Assembly: GCF_002906575.1 (NCBI RefSeq)
Contig: NZ_CP026309.1
Location: 1,984,001 to 2,048,000 of the forward strand
Direction: 5' to 3'
Source of the DNA: Salinigranum rubrum
GTDB lineage: Archaea; Halobacteriota; Halobacteria; Halobacteriales; Haloferacaceae
Length of the DNA: 64,000 nt
The notes under the pieces are model-generated. The model saw nothing but the letters and a program-made list of their open reading frames with translations, was not told where the DNA came from and did not search any database. A program made the translations under genes and the position numbers. How positions within the stretch are numbered: position 1 is the first letter of the stretch; every line of letters starts with the position of its first letter. Positions 22,973-31,566 of this stretch are shown piece by piece.

Positions 22973-24967
22973 TCACTCGAACGCGAGCACCAGCCCGAGT
23001 TCGTCGAGGAGGAGTTGCTGGCCGACTCCCTCGCGTTCGAGGCGGTTGAACGCCTGCTTGACGACGTGGGCCGGGTACCCCTCGGCCGTGAGCGCGTCGA
23101 GGCGGACGTTCAGTTCGCCCTCGTCGGCGCGTTCGCGGACGACCGCTACGCAGTCGTGGAGGCGCTCGGCGTCGACCCCGACGTCGAAGAGGCCGGCGTT
23201 GCCCGCGAGCAGGTCGTCGGACGCGTCGAACCGGAGTTCGCCGGTCTGGAGGTCCACCAAGTAGAGGTGGAGCCGCCGGTCGAAGCGGTTCCGCGCGAAC
23301 GACTCGTCGAGCAGGCGGTCGGCGACGTCGTCGGTCCAGCCGGTCGGCGACGCGAGCGCGAGCACGGTGTGAGCGTCGTCGTCACCGATGGTCCGGACCG
23401 CGCGGGTGACGACGTCGAGGAGGTCGTCGACCGTCGCCGGCCGGGCGTCGAAGCCGTTGTGCGCGTAGGCTTCGAGGTGGCTCACCACGCTCGCTTCGAG
23501 GACGAGTTGTCGCTCCCGGCCGAGGCCGAGATAGCGCGACCGCCCGAGTTCGAAGCGGACGCTCCGGTTCGCGGGGAACGCGTCGAAGTCGCCGTCGGCT
23601 CCGAGGTAGTCGCGCAGTCGAGGCACCTCGTCGCGGCGGCTGACCGCGCCGTCCCACGCCGCCGGCGGTACCTCGACGGCCCCCTCGGGAGTGGTGAGAC
23701 GCGCCGCCTCGTGGACGCTGATGTCGAACCGACCGAGGTAGTCGAGTTCGAACAGCCGCGCCATGGCCGTGGTGACGACGCCCTCGCCGGTTCGTTCGGT
23801 GGTCTCGGACAGAGCGGTCGACAGCGCCTCGACGCGCGCCGTCAGGTCGGCCTCGCGCTCGTCGAGGCGCGCCTCCGCGTCGGCGATGCGCTGGCGTTCC
23901 CGTCTGAGCGCGTCGATGCTCTCGGCCACCGCGTCGTGCTGTTCGCGGAGCGCGTCGAGTTCGTGTGAGACGAGCGCGACCGTCTCCTCGCCCAGGCGTC
24001 CGCCGTCGGCTAGCGCCCTCTCGTGAGCGGTTTCGAGTTCCCCGATGCGTTCGGTGAGCCGGCCGTCGAGCTGACTCGCGCGGTCGATTCTCTCCGAGAG
24101 GTCCGAAACGGCCCGCTCCTGTGTCCGCTGGAGTTCGGCCGTCTGCGCGCGGAGCGCGTCGAGTTCCTCCCGCACCCCGTCCGACAGCTCCCTGCCGTCG
24201 AGGCCGGCCTCGACCGTCCGGAGCCTGGCGTCGACGGCGGCCTCCCGCTCCGAAAGCGTCCGGTCGAGGTCGGCCGCCACCGACTGCACCTCCCGCTCGA
24301 TGGCTTCCCGTATCGCCTCGCGTTCGTCCGCGGAGTCGGCGACGGCGGTGATGGCCCGCTCGATGGAGTCGACCAGTCCCGAAGGGTTGTGAATCTCGAC
24401 GTACAGTTGGACGGCGCGCTTGATCTTGTCGAGCCGGGCGTCGTAGCGGTTCACGAGCTGTTTCAGCACGTCCCGCTGGACGGTCGGGTCGTCCAGCAGC
24501 GCGTCGAGGTCGTCGAGTTGAGTGGAGTGGTACTCCTTTGCGAGGGTGTACACCTCGCCGTCCATCCGCCGGATGCGCTCTTCGATTCCCTCCTCGCTGA
24601 GCGCGTCGAAGCTCTTGTACCGCTCGAAGTCGATGGCGGCCTGCACTTCCACGGGGGCGAAGTCGCCGTCCAGTTCCGTGGGAACGGGCTCGTTCCGGTT
24701 CTCGAAGCTCGCGTAGACGAACAGCCGGGCGAGGCGGAACCGGCTCCGCAGTTCCTCCCGCTCGGCGCTCGTAAGCTGGTCGGGACACGAGGCGGGGTAG
24801 TCGAAGACGAACTCCTCCTCCTCGCGAGCGAGCCGCCGGTACCGCTCGACCCGCGAGTCGGTCGGCATCCGCCCGAGCGACGCGAGGTCCTCGTCGATGA
24901 CCGCCTCCTGGAGCTGGAGGAGTCCACGTAGTCTGTCCGCACAGTCGCCTGAATCGATGGAACTCAT
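22973..24967 (-). CDS. large coiled-coil protein of unknown function
   Basis: A 664-residue protein. The first 200 residues are helical with no known motif. About residues 205-400 form a long Arg/Glu/Ala-rich coiled coil (DERADLTARVEAL-like heptads, for example ELDALRAQTAELQRTQERAV). The last 260 residues form a globular domain with mixed beta/alpha character (VRFELGRSRYLGLGRERQLV, then LHLYLVDLQTGELRFDASDD). No membrane segment or signal. It is divergent from the ESCRT-like cluster at 25259 and shares its 291-base promoter region, so it may belong to the same process, but this is inference from position only. Confidence 0.7.
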   Translation of the reverse strand: MSSIDSGDCADRLRGLLQLQEAVIDEDLASLGRMPTDSRVERYRRLAREEEEFVFDYPASCPDQLTSAEREELRSRFRLARLFVYASFENRNEPVPTELDGDFAPVEVQAAIDFERYKSFDALSEEGIEERIRRMDGEVYTLAKEYHSTQLDDLDALLDDPTVQRDVLKQLVNRYDARLDKIKRAVQLYVEIHNPSGLVDSIERAITAVADSADEREAIREAIEREVQSVAADLDRTLSEREAAVDARLRTVEAGLDGRELSDGVREELDALRAQTAELQRTQERAVSDLSERIDRASQLDGRLTERIGELETAHERALADGGRLGEETVALVSHELDALREQHDAVAESIDALRRERQRIADAEARLDEREADLTARVEALSTALSETTERTGEGVVTTAMARLFELDYLGRFDISVHEAARLTTPEGAVEVPPAAWDGAVSRRDEVPRLRDYLGADGDFDAFPANRSVRFELGRSRYLGLGRERQLVLEASVVSHLEAYAHNGFDARPATVDDLLDVVTRAVRTIGDDDAHTVLALASPTGWTDDVADRLLDESFARNRFDRRLHLYLVDLQTGELRFDASDDLLAGNAGLFDVGVDAERLHDCVAVVRERADEGELNVRLDALTAEGYPAHVVKQAFNRLEREGVGQQLLLDELGLVLAFE

Positions 24968-25258: not shown

Positions 25259-25588
25259 ATGACTCTCGAACTCTGGCAACTCGGCGGTGTACTCCTGTTG
25301 AACGTCGTCCTCGGCGCGCTGTTGGTCGTCGGGGTGTTCGCGTTCATGGAGCGGCGGGTGACCCTCGGTGCTGCCGGTGGGATTCTCGTCGGCGCGGCGC
25401 TGATCTACGCGCAGGCGACGCTCGGCGAGACGTGGCTCAACGTCACGGTCGCCGAGATGAAACTGCTCGTCCTCGCGGCGGCGGTCGGTGCCGTCGTCGG
25501 CGTCGTCGGCGTCGTGTTGGCGGTCGAACCCGAACTCGACCCCAAGGAGCGGGCCGCGCGCAAGCGCCGCAAGGCCGCTGGTCGCTAA
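25259..25588 (+). CDS. small three-helix membrane protein (first gene of ESCRT-like cluster)
   Basis: A 109-residue membrane protein with three hydrophobic segments (GGVLLLNVVLGALLVVGVFAF, AAGGILVGAALIYAQA, and KLLVLAAAVGAVVGVVGVV) and a basic C-terminal tail (KERAARKRRKAAGR) likely facing the cytoplasm. No family recognised. It is followed 61 bases later by the ESCRT-III-like gene, making it a candidate membrane recruiter for that cluster. Confidence 0.7.
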   Translation: MTLELWQLGGVLLLNVVLGALLVVGVFAFMERRVTLGAAGGILVGAALIYAQATLGETWLNVTVAEMKLLVLAAAVGAVVGVVGVVLAVEPELDPKERAARKRRKAAGR

Positions 25589-25649
25589 CGGCGACCACGA
25601 AGGACGTGTACCGACAGCGAACAACGACCGGTAGCGACAACTGATACAC

Positions 25650-26297
25650 ATGAAACTCAGAGAATGGGTGTTCGGCGGCAAGGACTTCAAGACGATGCTC
25701 GACCCGACGGTGTACTCCGACGAGGAGATATCCCGGGACAAGCACAAGGCGAACATCCTGATGACGCAGTACGAACAGGAGATGAACAAGCACGCGGCGT
25801 CGTACAAACGTCTCATCAAGGAGGGTGCCGAAGCGGGCGAACTCCAGCGCAAGAACCTGGCGATGCGCGCGCGGATGGAGAAGCAGCGCTACAACCAGAA
25901 GAAACAGCTGTTCACGATGATGAGCACGAAACTCGCCGCCGTGATGAGCCTCGAGATGGCCCGCGAGATGGCCAGAGCGAAGTCACAGGACGGCGGGCTC
26001 GTCATCGACACCGTGTTCACCGCCGCGGAGGCCCAACAGATCCACTCGCAGGTGCTCGACAGCATGACCGACCTGGGCGTGCGCAACGAGGCGATGGAGA
26101 AGTTCGTCGACACGCTCAACATCCCCGTCGTCAGCGACGAGGTGACCGAGGACTCGGCCGAGATTACGGCGATGGAACGGATCGCCGCCGGCGACCGAGG
26201 CGCGGACGAACTCGACATCGAAGACGAGTTCGGCGCCGAGTTCGACCCCGCGGAGATGGATGTCTCCGACGTCGACTTCGACGAAGCCGCCGGGTGA
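25650..26297 (+). CDS. ESCRT-III/Snf7-like helical protein (candidate)
   Basis: A 215-residue protein with the layout of ESCRT-III subunits. A short amphipathic N-terminus (MKLREWVFGG) is followed by a basic helical hairpin (about residues 26-112, with YKRLIKEGAEAGELQRKNLA in the turn region and long Met/Lys-rich second helix), a further helix (about 124-155), and a strongly acidic tail (160-215). Within the tail, EITAMERI (171-178) fits the MIM1 pattern for MIT binding with conservative changes. The next gene encodes a Vps4-like ATPase with an MIT-like domain. Known ESCRT-III proteins polymerise on membranes and are remodelled by Vps4. Similarity is by architecture and local pattern, not a database match. 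Confidence 0.6.
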   Translation: MKLREWVFGGKDFKTMLDPTVYSDEEISRDKHKANILMTQYEQEMNKHAASYKRLIKEGAEAGELQRKNLAMRARMEKQRYNQKKQLFTMMSTKLAAVMSLEMAREMARAKSQDGGLVIDTVFTAAEAQQIHSQVLDSMTDLGVRNEAMEKFVDTLNIPVVSDEVTEDSAEITAMERIAAGDRGADELDIEDEFGAEFDPAEMDVSDVDFDEAAG

Positions 26298-26367
26298 GCC
26301 GAGTTCGAAGACTCACCGGTGACAGAGCGGCTGACAGCGCGTGCGAAGACACAACGGAGGGACAGCG

Positions 26368-27555
26368 ATGTTCGACGAGAGTGCGTTCAAAGAGATAGTT
26401 ACAGAACAGTACACGAAGGAGCGAAAACGCGCCGAGAAGCAGTACAAGAACGGCAATCGAGCGGCCGCCGCTCGTCACTACCGGGCGGCAGCGTCGCGGC
26501 TGACAGAACTCGCTGACCTCGAGCGGAACGGCGAACTGGAGAAGCGTCACCGGACGGACGCCGAGCGCTACCGCTCGTGGGCCGAGAAGTTGGAGCGCGA
26601 GCCACAGCCACAGCCGCGGCAAGCGGGGAGCGCGTCGAGCGAGGGAGAGGGGTCGGGGCGTGGCGCGCTCCGGACAAAGGGCGAGTCGGCGGAGCAGACC
26701 GAAGGTGACGAGACGCTGGAGGCGGCACGCCTGCTCGAAGCGCCGCCGGCTCTCACCTTCGACGACGTCGGCGGGATGCACGACCTCAAGCAGTTGCTCA
26801 TCGAGCGCGTCGTCGACCCCCTCGAACGCAAGGAACTGTACGAGGAGTACGACCTCGGCGTGGTCAACGGCATCCTCCTCTATGGGCCCCCGGGGACGGG
26901 CAAGACGTTCATCGCGCGGGCGCTCGCGGGAAAACTCGGCTACAACTTCATGAACGTCACCACGGCCGACGTCGTCAGCAAGTACGTCGGCGAGGCCGCC
27001 CAGAACGTCCGCGACGTCTTCGCCGTCGCCAAGGCGAACCAGCCGTGTATGGTGTTCTTCGACGAGTTCGACGCCGTCGCCTCCGACCGCGGCGGGGACA
27101 TGTCCAGTTCGGAGAAGCAGATGGTCAACCAGTTCCTGCAGTCGCTCACGGACGTCCAGGGCGAAGACGTCGTCGTGGTCGCGGCGACGAACTACCTCGA
27201 CCTCCTCGACTCGGCGGTGAAGCGTTCGGGGCGGTTCGACGAGCGCATCGAGGTGCCGCCGCCGGACGCCGACGCCCGCGTCGAGATACTGAAGATCCAC
27301 CTGCGGAACCGCCCAGTGTTGTTGAAGGAAGTCGACTGGGACCGCGTCGCCGCGCTCACCGAAGGGTACTCCGGGAGCGACATCGAACTGGTCGCGGAGA
27401 ACGCTGCTCGACTGGCGCTCAAGGAGCGCCTCGAACGCGACGAGACGGTGTACATCTCACAGACGCACATCGAGGCGGCCATCGGCGAGACGCCGCCGAC
27501 CATCGAGTACGACGCGAGCGACGGCGGTGGCGACGCGGGCGAAGGGGTCGCCTGA
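26368..27555 (+). CDS. Vps4/CdvC-like AAA ATPase with MIT-like N-terminal domain
   Basis: A 395-residue AAA protein. Residues 5-75 form three Lys/Arg/Ala-rich helices ending AERYRSWAEKLERE, closely like the MIT domain of Vps4, spastin and CdvC. A disordered acidic linker follows. The AAA module has FDDVGGMHDLKQLL, Walker A GPPGTGKT (about 173-180), Walker B MVFFDEFDAV (about 226-235), the SRH with KRSGRFDERIEVPPPD and sensor 2 YSGSDIELVAENAAR. The SRH resembles Cdc48-type proteins as much as Vps4, so the clade needs a tree. Start at 26368 follows a purine-rich GGAGG (26357-26361). Its stop overlaps the next start by one base. Confidence 0.85.
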   Translation: MFDESAFKEIVTEQYTKERKRAEKQYKNGNRAAAARHYRAAASRLTELADLERNGELEKRHRTDAERYRSWAEKLEREPQPQPRQAGSASSEGEGSGRGALRTKGESAEQTEGDETLEAARLLEAPPALTFDDVGGMHDLKQLLIERVVDPLERKELYEEYDLGVVNGILLYGPPGTGKTFIARALAGKLGYNFMNVTTADVVSKYVGEAAQNVRDVFAVAKANQPCMVFFDEFDAVASDRGGDMSSSEKQMVNQFLQSLTDVQGEDVVVVAATNYLDLLDSAVKRSGRFDERIEVPPPDADARVEILKIHLRNRPVLLKEVDWDRVAALTEGYSGSDIELVAENAARLALKERLERDETVYISQTHIEAAIGETPPTIEYDASDGGGDAGEGVA

Positions 27556-28295
27556 TGCGCGCGTACCTCTCGCCCGTCACCGACAGCGACGAGGTCCGCC
27601 GGGTGGTCGTCGAGTCGTCCGTCGGTATCTACCGGCGAGCGGAGGACGCCGCAGTCGTCGTCTCGACGGGCGACGACGTGGTCGACCTCGGCGTCGCCGA
27701 CCAGTCGGTCTCGCGTCTCCGCCCCGGCGGACCGCCGGTGGTGCTCGAACCGACGACGAACGGCGTCGCGGTCCGCAACGACGGCAGCACCAACCCGGTG
27801 TACGTCCGCACCGGCATCGGCGAGCACACGCTCGACCGCGGCGAGTCGACGCTCGTCGACAGCCACTGCACCATCACCGTCGGCGGACGGCGCGGGACCG
27901 CGCTGCATCTCACGCTGGAACGCGACGACCGCCTCACCCTCGGCGAGTACGTCGACCACGCTGGTCTCAACCTCGGGCGGTCGGGCGCGGTCCTCGGCGG
28001 GGTTCCGGTCTCGTCGTACGTCCCGGCGGTCGTCGAACTCCTGTTGAAGGCGCGCGAGGAGGGGACGAGCGAGTGTCTGAAGTACACGCACGAACTCCGG
28101 ACGGTCCTCTCGGAACATCCCATCGAGAGCGGCGAGTACGACGACCTCTGCGACGAGGTCGACGACATCGAGGGACGGCTCGAACTCCGACTCGAACTGT
28201 CGATGGGCGACGAACTCGACCCCGAGTACCACGCGCGTATCGACCGCGCGGCCCACCGGGTCGTTCGGCTGTACACCAGAGAGGTGGCCGTCTGA
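27555..28295 (+). CDS. FHA-like phosphopeptide-binding protein (candidate)
   Basis: A 246-residue cytoplasmic protein. Residues 15-115 are beta-rich and contain an FHA-like end (VRNDGSTNPVYVRTGIGEH, then LDRGESTLV), where FHA domains normally read STNGT; the usual N-terminal GR and SRxH residues are not clear, so the domain is divergent or a non-canonical forkhead-associated fold. The C-terminal half is helical and acidic. It overlaps the ATPase and the kinase genes by one base each, so translation is coupled. FHA proteins bind phosphothreonine; with the kinase and phosphatase next door a signal-reading role is likely. Confidence 0.6.
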   Translation: MRAYLSPVTDSDEVRRVVVESSVGIYRRAEDAAVVVSTGDDVVDLGVADQSVSRLRPGGPPVVLEPTTNGVAVRNDGSTNPVYVRTGIGEHTLDRGESTLVDSHCTITVGGRRGTALHLTLERDDRLTLGEYVDHAGLNLGRSGAVLGGVPVSSYVPAVVELLLKAREEGTSECLKYTHELRTVLSEHPIESGEYDDLCDEVDDIEGRLELRLELSMGDELDPEYHARIDRAAHRVVRLYTREVAV

Positions 28296-30844
28296 TGGTG
28301 GCCGACGTGACGGTCGGCGACCCGCTCCCGGGAACCGAAGGAGGGGTCACTCCGCCCGCGACCGAGAGCGAGGGCGACGGTGGAGAGCCGACCAAGCGGT
28401 GGTACTACCTCACGCTGCTGTTCCTCGTCGTGACGGTGGCGTACGGCCTCTCGGTGCTCGCACTCGACAGCGCGTACTTCCTCTTCCCGGGCGAACTCGG
28501 GATGCTGCTCTGGATCGGTGTCGTCGTCGCCAGCGGCCCCCTCGCCCTGTTCTTCTGGCTCGACACGCGGGCGGTGGCTCGTGCGAATCGGAATCCGGAG
28601 GTCGTGGACACTTCGCGGCTCCTGGGACCGTGGGTCACCGGAATCGGCGGCGGTCTCACGGGTCTCGTGGCGGTGTTCGTCGTCCCGGTGGGAATTTTGG
28701 CTGCCGTCTACTACCAGTTCCCGCTCCTGTTCGCCGTTCTGTGGTACCTGGGGTCGACGCGCCGGCGAGCGCTGCGCCTGGCGGAAAAATCACAGCCACC
28801 CATCGTCGACCCGCCGTTCGTCAGCCCACCGGAGAACGAGTCGCCCGACGAGGACCGCCCCGACTTGCCGCCGCGGCTGTATCGCAAGGCGAAGCGGCTG
28901 AGAGAGCGCGGCAGCGACCGGATGGCGGACGGCGAGACGGCACAGGGGAACGACGACCACGAGAACGCGGCGTCGGCGTACCGCGAGGCGGTCGATGCGT
29001 ACACGAAGGCGGTCGAACTCGTCGACGGCTACGCGGTCGACGACTCCGCACTCCGCAGCGATCTTGAACGGGCGAAGGAGGAGTACCGGACGGTCACGCG
29101 CGTCCGCGAGAGTGCGACCGCGGACGAGTACCTCGCCAGCGCGCGAGACATCGCGCGCCGCGGTGACGAGCGGTACGCGGACGGTGACCGCGACGGTGCA
29201 ATCGACCTGTGGACGGAGGCCGCGACAGTGTACGACCGGGCCATCGAAGTCGCCGCCGAGGAGGACGCGGGCGACCTCCGACGGCTCCGACAGGAACTCC
29301 GTGCGAAGGTCACCGAGACGGAACGCGAGCGCGCGACGGCCCGCCGCGTCCACGCGGAGGCGACCGCCGACGAGGCGCTCGCCCGCGGGCGCGCGGCGCT
29401 GGACGACGGCGACCACGACGGCGCGAAGGCGGCGTTTGCTGAGGCGGTCGAGGCGCTCGAAACCGCCCGTGCGGTCGCGCGCGAACACGACGAGGACGCG
29501 ACCGACCTCGACGACGCACTGGGCCACGCGCGGCGCGGTGTCGTCGACGCCACCCTGGGGGCGCTCGAAGCGGAACTGGCCACACGCACTGGCGACGAAA
29601 CGACCACGGGCCGCCGGGGGAGCCGCGGGCTTTTCGACCGTGTGCGCCGCGGACTCGACGACCTCGAAGCCGCGGAGAGCGAGGCGTTCACCGACGACCA
29701 CCACGACCGGGTCGCGAGCCTCCGCGAGCGGGTCGCCATCGAGACGCTCCGCGAGGCGGTGGTCGGACAACTCGCCGAGATGGAGCGGGCGGAGCGACTG
29801 TACGCGGGCGAGAAGTTCTTCGAGGCGCGGGAAGTGTACCGCCGGGTCCGCGCGAGCGTCGAGGCGCTCGCGGCGACGGAGTCGGCGTCGCTCACCGAGG
29901 AGGTCGAGGACGAACTCTCGCGGGTCGTGCTCGCGTGCGAACTGAACGTCGAGGCCATCCGGAAAGCCATCTACGAGAGCGACTCGACCGAACCGCTCGT
30001 GACCACCGAGGAGATCGCCCACGGGGGCCCGCTCCGCGACGAGGACGACCTCATCGTCGACCGGGTGCTCGAATATCTCCCGGGATACACGCGCGTCAAG
30101 CAACTCGGCGGCGGCGGCTTCGCCGACATCTGGGTGGTCAACGGCGAGGCGGGACGGGCGGCGCTGAAAATCCCCCGGGTGTCGGACTACGAGACCATTC
30201 CGGAGTCGAAGATCCGGCGGTTCGTCGCGGAGGCGGAGAACTGGCAACTCGTCGCGAACCACCCGAACGTCGTCGACGTCCTGCAGTACGGCGAGAAGCC
30301 CGTCCCGTGGCTCCTCCTCGAACTGTGCGAGGGGACGCTCCGGGCGCGGCTCGACGCCGGCGCGGCGTTCGACGAGCGGGTCGTCGTCCTCGCGGCCGTC
30401 GGCGACGCGCTCGGGTACGCGAACGCGAAAGGCATCGCTCACCTCGACATCAAGCCGGAGAACGTCCTGTTCGACGGCGAGGGCGTCGCGAAACTCGGCG
30501 ACTGGGGGCTGTCGAAGGTGATGACCGAGGGGACGATAACCGGCACCGGCCACAGTCTCCTGTACGCCGCGCCCGAGCAACTGGACCGGAGCCTCGGCGA
30601 GCGGGACATCCGCACCGACGTCTACCAGTACGGCGTCCTCGCGTACGAACTCCTGACGGGCGAGCACCCCTTCGAGGTCGGGTCACGCGAGGCCATCGTC
30701 CCCCCCAGTAAACGGAACCCGGACCTCCCGGGGTCGGTCGATACGACGCTCCTGAAGGCGCTGGCGTACGACCAGACCGAGCGGTACGAGCAGGTCGTGC
30801 AGGTGCGCGACGCGCTCACCAGAGCGCTCGGAGTCGAGGCGTGA
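28295..30844 (+). CDS. membrane-anchored Ser/Thr protein kinase with TPR/MIT-like repeats
   Basis: An 849-residue protein. Four membrane segments fall at about 36-57, 68-88, 111-139 and 140-153. A helical region follows with hairpin repeats starting near 193, 278 and 359 (for example YLASARDIARRGDERYADG), a TPR- or MIT-like pattern. The kinase domain is C-terminal (about 590-849): Gly loop LGGGGFADIW, Lys in AALKIP (near 625), catalytic HLDIKPEN (near 715), DWG in place of DFG (near 736), APEQL, and DVYQYGVLAYELLTG. All catalytic residues are kept, so it is probably active. The kinase lies on the cytoplasmic side if the N-terminus does. Confidence 0.87.
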   Translation: MVADVTVGDPLPGTEGGVTPPATESEGDGGEPTKRWYYLTLLFLVVTVAYGLSVLALDSAYFLFPGELGMLLWIGVVVASGPLALFFWLDTRAVARANRNPEVVDTSRLLGPWVTGIGGGLTGLVAVFVVPVGILAAVYYQFPLLFAVLWYLGSTRRRALRLAEKSQPPIVDPPFVSPPENESPDEDRPDLPPRLYRKAKRLRERGSDRMADGETAQGNDDHENAASAYREAVDAYTKAVELVDGYAVDDSALRSDLERAKEEYRTVTRVRESATADEYLASARDIARRGDERYADGDRDGAIDLWTEAATVYDRAIEVAAEEDAGDLRRLRQELRAKVTETERERATARRVHAEATADEALARGRAALDDGDHDGAKAAFAEAVEALETARAVAREHDEDATDLDDALGHARRGVVDATLGALEAELATRTGDETTTGRRGSRGLFDRVRRGLDDLEAAESEAFTDDHHDRVASLRERVAIETLREAVVGQLAEMERAERLYAGEKFFEAREVYRRVRASVEALAATESASLTEEVEDELSRVVLACELNVEAIRKAIYESDSTEPLVTTEEIAHGGPLRDEDDLIVDRVLEYLPGYTRVKQLGGGGFADIWVVNGEAGRAALKIPRVSDYETIPESKIRRFVAEAENWQLVANHPNVVDVLQYGEKPVPWLLLELCEGTLRARLDAGAAFDERVVVLAAVGDALGYANAKGIAHLDIKPENVLFDGEGVAKLGDWGLSKVMTEGTITGTGHSLLYAAPEQLDRSLGERDIRTDVYQYGVLAYELLTGEHPFEVGSREAIVPPSKRNPDLPGSVDTTLLKALAYDQTERYEQVVQVRDALTRALGVEA

Positions 30845-31566
30845 CGCGCGTCGAAACCGCCGTCGAGAGCGACGCCGGTCTCGTCCGCACGAACAACGAG
30901 GACAGCACCCTCCGCGTCGCGCTCGACGGCGACGAGGGTCGACAGTGGCTGCTCGCCGTGGCCGACGGGGTCGGCGGCGTCGACGGCGGCGAGGTAGCCA
31001 GCACTGCCGTCGTCTCCGAACTCGCCGCGTACGCGAAGCACTTGCGGGACGCCGGCGAACGCGACGCCGAGACGCTCCTCCGTGAGGGACTCGCCGCCGC
31101 CCGGGAGGAGTTCACCGCCTACGCCGCGGCCGAAGGGTTCGGCGGGGCGGGCACGACGCTGGTCGCGGCGGTGGTGGACGTCGACTCGGACTCCCTGCCG
31201 ACCGTGACCGTTCTCAACGTGGGAGACAGTCGCGCGTACGTCTGCGGGTCGAGCGGCCTCCGGCAGGTAACCACCGACCACACCGTCGGCCGAGAACGGG
31301 ACGCCGGCGGGCGGTACGGGCACGTCCTCTCGCGGTGGGTCGGTGTCGAGGCCCGGGTCGACCCCGACGTGTTCGTCGAACCGCTCGACGAAACGCTCCT
31401 GCTCTGCTCGGACGGTCTGACGAACGAACTGTCGGACGAGGAGATACGGGAGGTGCTCGAAGGCGGTGGCTCCGTCGCTGACCGCGCCGCGGCGCTCGTC
31501 GAGCGGGCACTCGCACACGGCGGGCGGGACAACGTGAGCGTGGTGTTGGCGGCGGTCCGCGACTGA
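30841..31566 (+). CDS. PP2C-type Ser/Thr protein phosphatase
   Basis: A 241-residue metal-dependent phosphatase. The PP2C motifs are visible in order: VRTNNEDS, LLAVADGVGGVDGGEVAS (metal Asp), GAGTTLVAA, NVGDSRAYV, TTDHTVG, LLCSDGLTNELSDEEI and GRDNVSVVLAAV. It starts with GTG at 30841, overlapping the kinase stop by four bases (GTGA), so the kinase and phosphatase are translationally coupled and likely act on the same targets. No transmembrane segment. It is the last gene of the ESCRT-like cluster. Confidence 0.92.
   Translation: MTRVETAVESDAGLVRTNNEDSTLRVALDGDEGRQWLLAVADGVGGVDGGEVASTAVVSELAAYAKHLRDAGERDAETLLREGLAAAREEFTAYAAAEGFGGAGTTLVAAVVDVDSDSLPTVTVLNVGDSRAYVCGSSGLRQVTTDHTVGRERDAGGRYGHVLSRWVGVEARVDPDVFVEPLDETLLLCSDGLTNELSDEEIREVLEGGGSVADRAAALVERALAHGGRDNVSVVLAAVRD

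Follow-up and report, generated by a model that had tools for sequence, protein, structure and literature searches.

Does a haloarchaeon carry an ESCRT (endosomal sorting complexes required for transport) machinery that is placed under the control of protein phosphorylation? This question is raised by a gene cluster in a 64,000-nucleotide stretch of the Salinigranum rubrum genome (RefSeq assembly GCF_002906575.1, contig NZ_CP026309.1, positions 1,984,001 to 2,048,000 of the forward strand), which we refer to as the window and whose numbering is used throughout. From sequence comparisons and structural models, we consider it probable (roughly 0.8) that the cluster belongs to the published Halo_FHA type of haloarchaeal ESCRT loci and that its role would be the regulated budding of membrane or sorting of proteins rather than cell division.

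The cluster comprises six tightly packed genes on the plus strand (25259–31566) and a seventh, divergent gene on the minus strand (22973–24967), which the first-pass annotation had overlooked and which is a member of the conserved gene set. The features, with the letters used below, are as follows.

22973–24967, minus strand: X, the divergent coiled-coil protein (664 residues), whose central domain is conserved and whose short C-terminal domain may be a winged helix
25259–25588, plus strand: A, a small membrane protein (109 residues) with about three transmembrane helices, a putative membrane anchor
25650–26297, plus strand: B, an ESCRT-III-like protein (215 residues), examined by alignment, AlphaFold2, Foldseek and hhalign
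26157–26186, plus strand: MIM1-like C-terminal helix of B (residues 170–179), predicted from conservation and the model
26368–27555, plus strand: C, an MIT-AAA ATPase (Vps4-like, 395 residues), with a Pfam AAA match and intact motifs
26377–26598, plus strand: MIT domain of C (residues 4–77, three helices), predicted by model, Foldseek and profile
27555–28295, plus strand: D, an FHA-like protein (246 residues), with an FHA-like region at residues 1–125 and a helical C-terminal part
28295–30844, plus strand: Ser/Thr kinase (849 residues), with a Pkinase domain and about four N-terminal transmembrane helices
30841–31566, plus strand: PP2C phosphatase (241 residues), with intact metal-binding aspartates

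All six plus-strand reading frames were present where the first-pass annotation had placed them. Overlaps of 1 to 4 bases join genes 3/4, 4/5 and 5/6; the two junctions further upstream are gaps of 61 and 70 bases. The genes adjoin one another, and the wording that had the ESCRT pair "fused" to a kinase-FHA-phosphatase module was imprecise. The start of C was placed at the ATG at 26368, an alternative GTG at 26341 being possible. Pfam matches in the operon were to AAA (1e-39), Pkinase (6e-28) and PP2C (2e-12), and no Pfam family scored above the cut-off for genes 1, 2 and 4 (A, B and D).

The gene set recurs in other haloarchaea. Relatives of B turned up in 11 of the 242 haloarchaeal genomes searched with the single protein, and with a nine-member profile the count was 26 of 391 genomes, from 14 of the 86 genera, the weakest matches (E above 1e-4) being partial; relatives of B were also sought on viral contigs, and none were found. 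Approximately 20 kb around each relative was read and neighbours were sought with iterated profiles, which revealed a recurring order, with X divergent, then A, B, C and D, followed by a kinase and/or a PP2C, while protein identities across the compared loci fell to ~28%. Near the 32 B-type genes, a number that includes paralogous copies and stand-alone genes, C was found in 25 cases, X in 20 (almost always in divergent orientation), D in 17, A in 12 (directly upstream of B), a kinase in 19 and a PP2C in 8. Because C, X and D recur near B in other haloarchaea, the arrangement of the operon is not due to chance, and the neighbourhood is conserved as anticipated, though patchily. Named species with module members included Halonotius roseus, H. 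pteroides, H. aquaticus and H. terrestris; among genome contigs, a query with one protein returned Halonotius-type relatives only. Two ESCRT-III-like paralogues were present in or near one locus in four instances (L061, L024, L065 and L069), which recalls systems that have several ESCRT-III subunits. The three stand-alone genes (L021, L056 and L067, the first two from one genus) encode ESCRT-III-like proteins that have no module neighbours and have longer C-termini (376–402 residues).

An MIT domain had been proposed for residues 1–75 of C, and both the predicted fold and the sequence profile confirmed it. The model of this region was a three-helix bundle with a predicted local distance difference test score (pLDDT) of 89.5, and its 11 best Foldseek matches in the PDB were all MIT domains of the Vps4 family (2w2u and 1yxr among them). 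The best of these, 2w2u, is an archaeal MIT domain solved with ESCRT-III (template-modelling scores of 0.71/0.81, root-mean-square deviation of 1.7 Å); E-values were modest (best, 0.07), as expected of an 86-residue bundle, and no other family ranked higher. The sequence profile of the region matched 2w2u (E = 0.0015) and CdvC 4lcb (E = 0.024), and also matched designed TPR proteins, one of which scored above these two entries. A CdvC model aligned over both the MIT and AAA parts of C, below the cut-off. By inspection, the Walker A (GPPGTGKT), Walker B (FFDEFD) and arginine-finger (RSGRFDER) regions of C were all intact.

We examined the relationship of C to Vps4 in a tree of window-type ATPases, the Cdc48 and PAN of the same genome, VAT, p97 and yeast Vps4 (taken, like the ESCRT-III references used below, from PDB entries); the tree held no CdvC or katanin. 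Window-type ATPases joined Vps4 apart from Cdc48 and PAN (ultrafast bootstrap, UFBoot, 96), along with two other long-branch AAAs. The ATPases of five loci (L023, L063, L065, L066 and L068) grouped with yeast Vps4 itself (UFBoot 99), and a Vps4-like C-terminus was present in the variant loci L023, L063–L066 and L068. In L023 and L066, such a Vps4-clade ATPase has X, A and B as neighbours, just as C does in the window, and this combination is our strongest argument for reading the window module as an ESCRT system. Separately, a second small protein with an MIT-profile match (E ~1e-6) was observed near the ESCRT-III-like gene at three loci of one genus (L063:8840-9520, L064:8765-9445 and L065:10141-10821).

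The AlphaFold2 model of B (predicted template-modelling score 0.67) consisted of a short N-terminal helix, a long helical hairpin (residues 24–61 and 64–112; pLDDT ~81–95), small helices and an acidic tail. Comparison by hhalign of a B alignment of 14 core members with Snf7, Shrub, CHMP3 and Vps24 gave P = 4e-4 at a probability of 34%, and use of all 30 members gave P = 0.004 with the same four references, compared to P values of 0.27 or more for three controls. Towards the C-terminus, a helix at residues 170–179 (pLDDT ~85–89) was flanked by low-confidence stretches, and E171, M175, A179, A180 and G181 were nearly invariant in the alignment. Compared with the MIM1 consensus (MIM, MIT-interacting motif), the spacing of this helix, E-x-x-[LMA]-x-x-[RE]-[LIM], is MIM1-like; the helix thus resembles an MIT-interacting motif and may bind the MIT domain of C. 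A search of the same genome and of the phylum with the Pfam Snf7 model gave weak matches, mostly partial and in long frames. One match in the same genome (L001, C1:3322511-3322732) was a weak, sub-cut-off hit in a 294-residue frame that is possibly PspA-like.

The two genes upstream of B were also conserved. A shares the segment VTVxEMKLLV...GAVxGV among its relatives, and its identity between genera reached 67%, exceeding that of B. The C-terminal profile of X had only two PDB matches, both weak, to RPC6 (E = 0.1) and MCM5 (E = 2.1). Both RPC6 and MCM5 carry winged helices, and the C-terminal domain of X may be one as well.

The remaining three genes suggest a phosphorylation circuit. In D, residues R27, S53, R54 and N80 were conserved in most or all members and are likely phospho-peptide contacts; the FHA domains of GarA/Rv1827 aligned in register with D, yet with an E-value of 1.5. 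D is likely an FHA protein, as judged from these residues. Related FHA-like proteins at three loci (L016:4228-5040, L019:4003-4773 and L055:5181-5921) carry a C-terminal zinc ribbon that replaces the helical part. The kinase has a middle region of helical repeats and a C-terminal Hanks kinase domain (residues 598–845) whose motifs were intact by inspection (the K in AALK, HLDIKPEN with an HLD variant of HRD, DWG and APE), and it is related to a kinase with transmembrane and TPR regions near the module in L018. MIT domains were considered for the middle region and rejected, as no MIT-profile match or meaningful PDB match was obtained. The PP2C motifs (NNED, ADGVGG, SDGLT and GRDN) were likewise intact. 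Within the 5-Mb genome, no PF00069 match other than the operon kinase was found at E ≤ 1e-6, in a search that covered this family and left other kinase types such as RIO outside it, and no PP2C_2 match other than the operon phosphatase at E ≤ 1e-4.

This association extended across the class, in a survey that scored up to six candidates per genome, with kinase counts being those among the matches listed. Kinase matches were present in 22 of 26 genomes with B and 123 of 365 without (391 genomes, Fisher p = 4e-7) and PP2C matches in 17 of 26 and 53 of 365, respectively (p = 3e-8), while 10 of the 11 genomes with four or more kinase matches among those listed had B (p = 3e-12), kinship being ignored in all three comparisons. 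In 13 module genomes, 32 of the 47 listed kinases lay within 30 kb of B, where ~0.8 would be expected. The kinase and PP2C are thus genuinely tied to the ESCRT-like module, as proposed earlier, both by their being the sole copies detected in the genome and by the class-wide enrichment. Kinases near the module were fused to various partners, including HSP70 plus GrpE (L120 and L122), PQQ-type beta-propellers (L018, L121 and L122), domains 2 and 3 of EF-Tu (L121), a plastocyanin domain (L123) and transmembrane plus TPR regions (L018). The proteins that combine HSP70, GrpE and a Hanks kinase (L120:2900-6550 and L122:12013-15138) come from two genera, one being the genus of the window, and neither HSP70 nor chaperones are mentioned in the main text of PMC10936438. 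A separate kinase–PP2C pair ~1 kb apart is widespread in haloarchaeal genomes that lack B (e.g. G052:C1:2045844-2047599).

A patchy module of kinase, AAA ATPase and coiled-coil protein could also be an accessory anti-viral or stress defence module; consistent with this, in PADLOC the ATPase matched IetA while PD-T4-6 and mad6 were matched by the kinase, and the distribution of B is patchy. However, these matches spanned only the generic AAA and kinase domains, no other partner (e.g. the IetS protease) was matched among the operon genes, and such a module would leave the membrane and MIT parts unexplained. We therefore regard a defence role as very unlikely.

Several results weigh against an ESCRT assignment. 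Foldseek returned no significant match for the B model: about 12 of its top 50 hits belonged to the ESCRT-III superfamily (Vipp1, CdvB2, Snf7 and Asgard ESCRT-IIIB), interspersed with other long helical proteins, and coiled-coil and SNARE proteins equalled the ESCRT-III members in score. The Pfam Snf7 model did not match B, a negative that is uninformative because the Sulfolobus control also fell below the cut-off. In the AAA tree, window-type ATPases formed a separate long-branch group outside the Vps4 clade proper. The Pfam FHA model did not match D, for which no database match reached significance and the FHA identity is drawn from conserved motifs, and a nearby PP2C or kinase was missing at some module loci. 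The first-pass descriptions of B, C and D held in part. An ESCRT-III fold for B is suggested by the hairpin model and the hhalign result, and is supported, not proven; C carries the MIT domain and groups apart from Cdc48/PAN, but lacks the Vps4 C-terminal helix, and its core appears to lie beside, not inside, the Vps4 clade, its exact position being unsettled; and D has the conserved FHA-type residues.

Some of these results would also fit a kinase-regulated AAA unfoldase or disaggregase, in which B and X would be adaptors and substrates of a Cdc48/PAN-like ATPase and the MIT-like bundle a generic docking domain. The AAA core of C scored best against PAN, CDC48 and FtsH models and branches separately from Vps4 in the tree, the structure search with B gave nothing significant, and kinases near the module in relatives are fused to HSP70-GrpE. 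In contrast, the N-terminal domain of C specifically matched Vps4 MIT domains, B has kept a MIM-like tail, Vps4-clade ATPases accompany these very X, A and B genes in L023 and L066, and the conserved protein A with its three transmembrane helices points to a membrane role. On balance, we consider an unfoldase unlikely and favour the ESCRT reading.

If the module is an ESCRT system, a further question is whether it divides cells, beside or in place of FtsZ, as the Cdv system of Thermoproteota (CdvA/CdvB/CdvC) does with a similar ESCRT-III plus MIT-AAA pair (CdvB/CdvC). The limited resemblance to CdvA that Makarova et al. 2024 (PMC10936438) report for the C-terminal portion of the FHA family would be in keeping with such a role. 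However, two FtsZ genes scored above the cut-off in this genome, and B occurs in only 26 of 391 haloarchaeal genomes and therefore cannot belong to a division machinery that is core to the class. The locus also differs from Cdv in its added kinase, FHA protein and PP2C and in its divergent ATPase core, and no CdvA was recognised in the operon, no profile search for CdvA having been made. A division apparatus is thus highly improbable, and the pair of FtsZ genes makes membrane budding, sorting or repair the preferred role of the proposed ESCRT system.

The first-pass annotation had regarded ESCRT machinery in haloarchaea as undescribed and a phosphorylation switch in such an operon as new. Neither claim survived comparison with Makarova et al. 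2024 (mBio, PMC10936438), whose Vps4 tree names clades that include Main and Halo_FHA. The latter clade (Halobacteriales) has an FHA family, arCOG13166, adjoining Vps4 and ESCRT-III, and some of its loci also hold arCOG09748, arCOG08177, kinases and phosphatases; the authors proposed phosphorylation as the key to control, with phosphorylated proteins as cargo. Like Halo_FHA loci, the haloarchaeal locus in the window combines a Vps4-type ATPase with an ESCRT-III-like and an FHA-like protein, and it also has a Ser/Thr kinase, a PP2C and an arCOG09748-like coiled-coil protein. Compared by published description, X fits the architecture of arCOG09748 (helical N-terminus, coiled coil, globular domain and C-terminal winged helix). 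In contrast, the protein with three transmembrane helices is not mentioned for the clade in the main text of that paper, and we noticed no arCOG08177 (Cas2-like/TBP) protein among the operon genes, no search having been aimed at it. Main-clade systems (Thermococcales, Methanomicrobiales and some Halobacteriales) resemble the window in that their published loci combine a coiled-coil protein bearing a winged helix with a kinase and a phosphatase, but are reported to carry arCOG08177; L023, L063, L066 and L068, with their Vps4-clade ATPases, may belong to the Main clade, and the window locus is probably outside it. Halo_adaptin systems are likewise found in haloarchaeal, FtsZ-bearing hosts, but the ATPases published for them have a VAT-like N domain and no MIT, whereas the window ATPase has a clear MIT. 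The window therefore probably holds a new locus of the published Halo_FHA type, not a new system. Our literature search for arCOG13166 found only Makarova et al. 2024, and no experimental test of haloarchaeal ESCRT was reported in the titles or abstracts returned by our searches. The present analysis adds two things: kinases and ESCRT are linked genome-wide, and the lone detectable Hanks kinase and PP2C of this genome are both in the operon.

As a working model of this Halo_FHA-type locus, A and X would recruit B to the cell membrane, on which B would assemble into a polymer through its N-terminal helix. C would grip the MIM-like C-terminal helix of B via its MIT domain and remodel or disassemble the polymer, which would drive membrane budding, sorting or repair. 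The membrane kinase would phosphorylate a client or a module subunit, D would read the phospho-mark and couple the marked protein to the ESCRT core, and the PP2C would erase the mark.

Much more tentatively, and with considerable doubt, we suggest that in module-bearing haloarchaea the Hanks kinases and PP2C may be mainly a control layer for ESCRT. Receptor kinases of the HSP70-GrpE, beta-propeller or transmembrane-TPR type would mark cargo, and the FHA protein would pass it to ESCRT-III/Vps4, with phosphorylation taking the role that ubiquitin has in eukaryotic and Asgard sorting. Haloarchaea include genetically tractable species, and a genome in which one detectable Hanks kinase and one detectable PP2C both lie in the ESCRT operon offers a simple case in which to ask whether phosphorylation controls ESCRT. 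If true, this would mean a non-ubiquitin signal for ESCRT cargo and would bear on the origin of the eukaryotic system.

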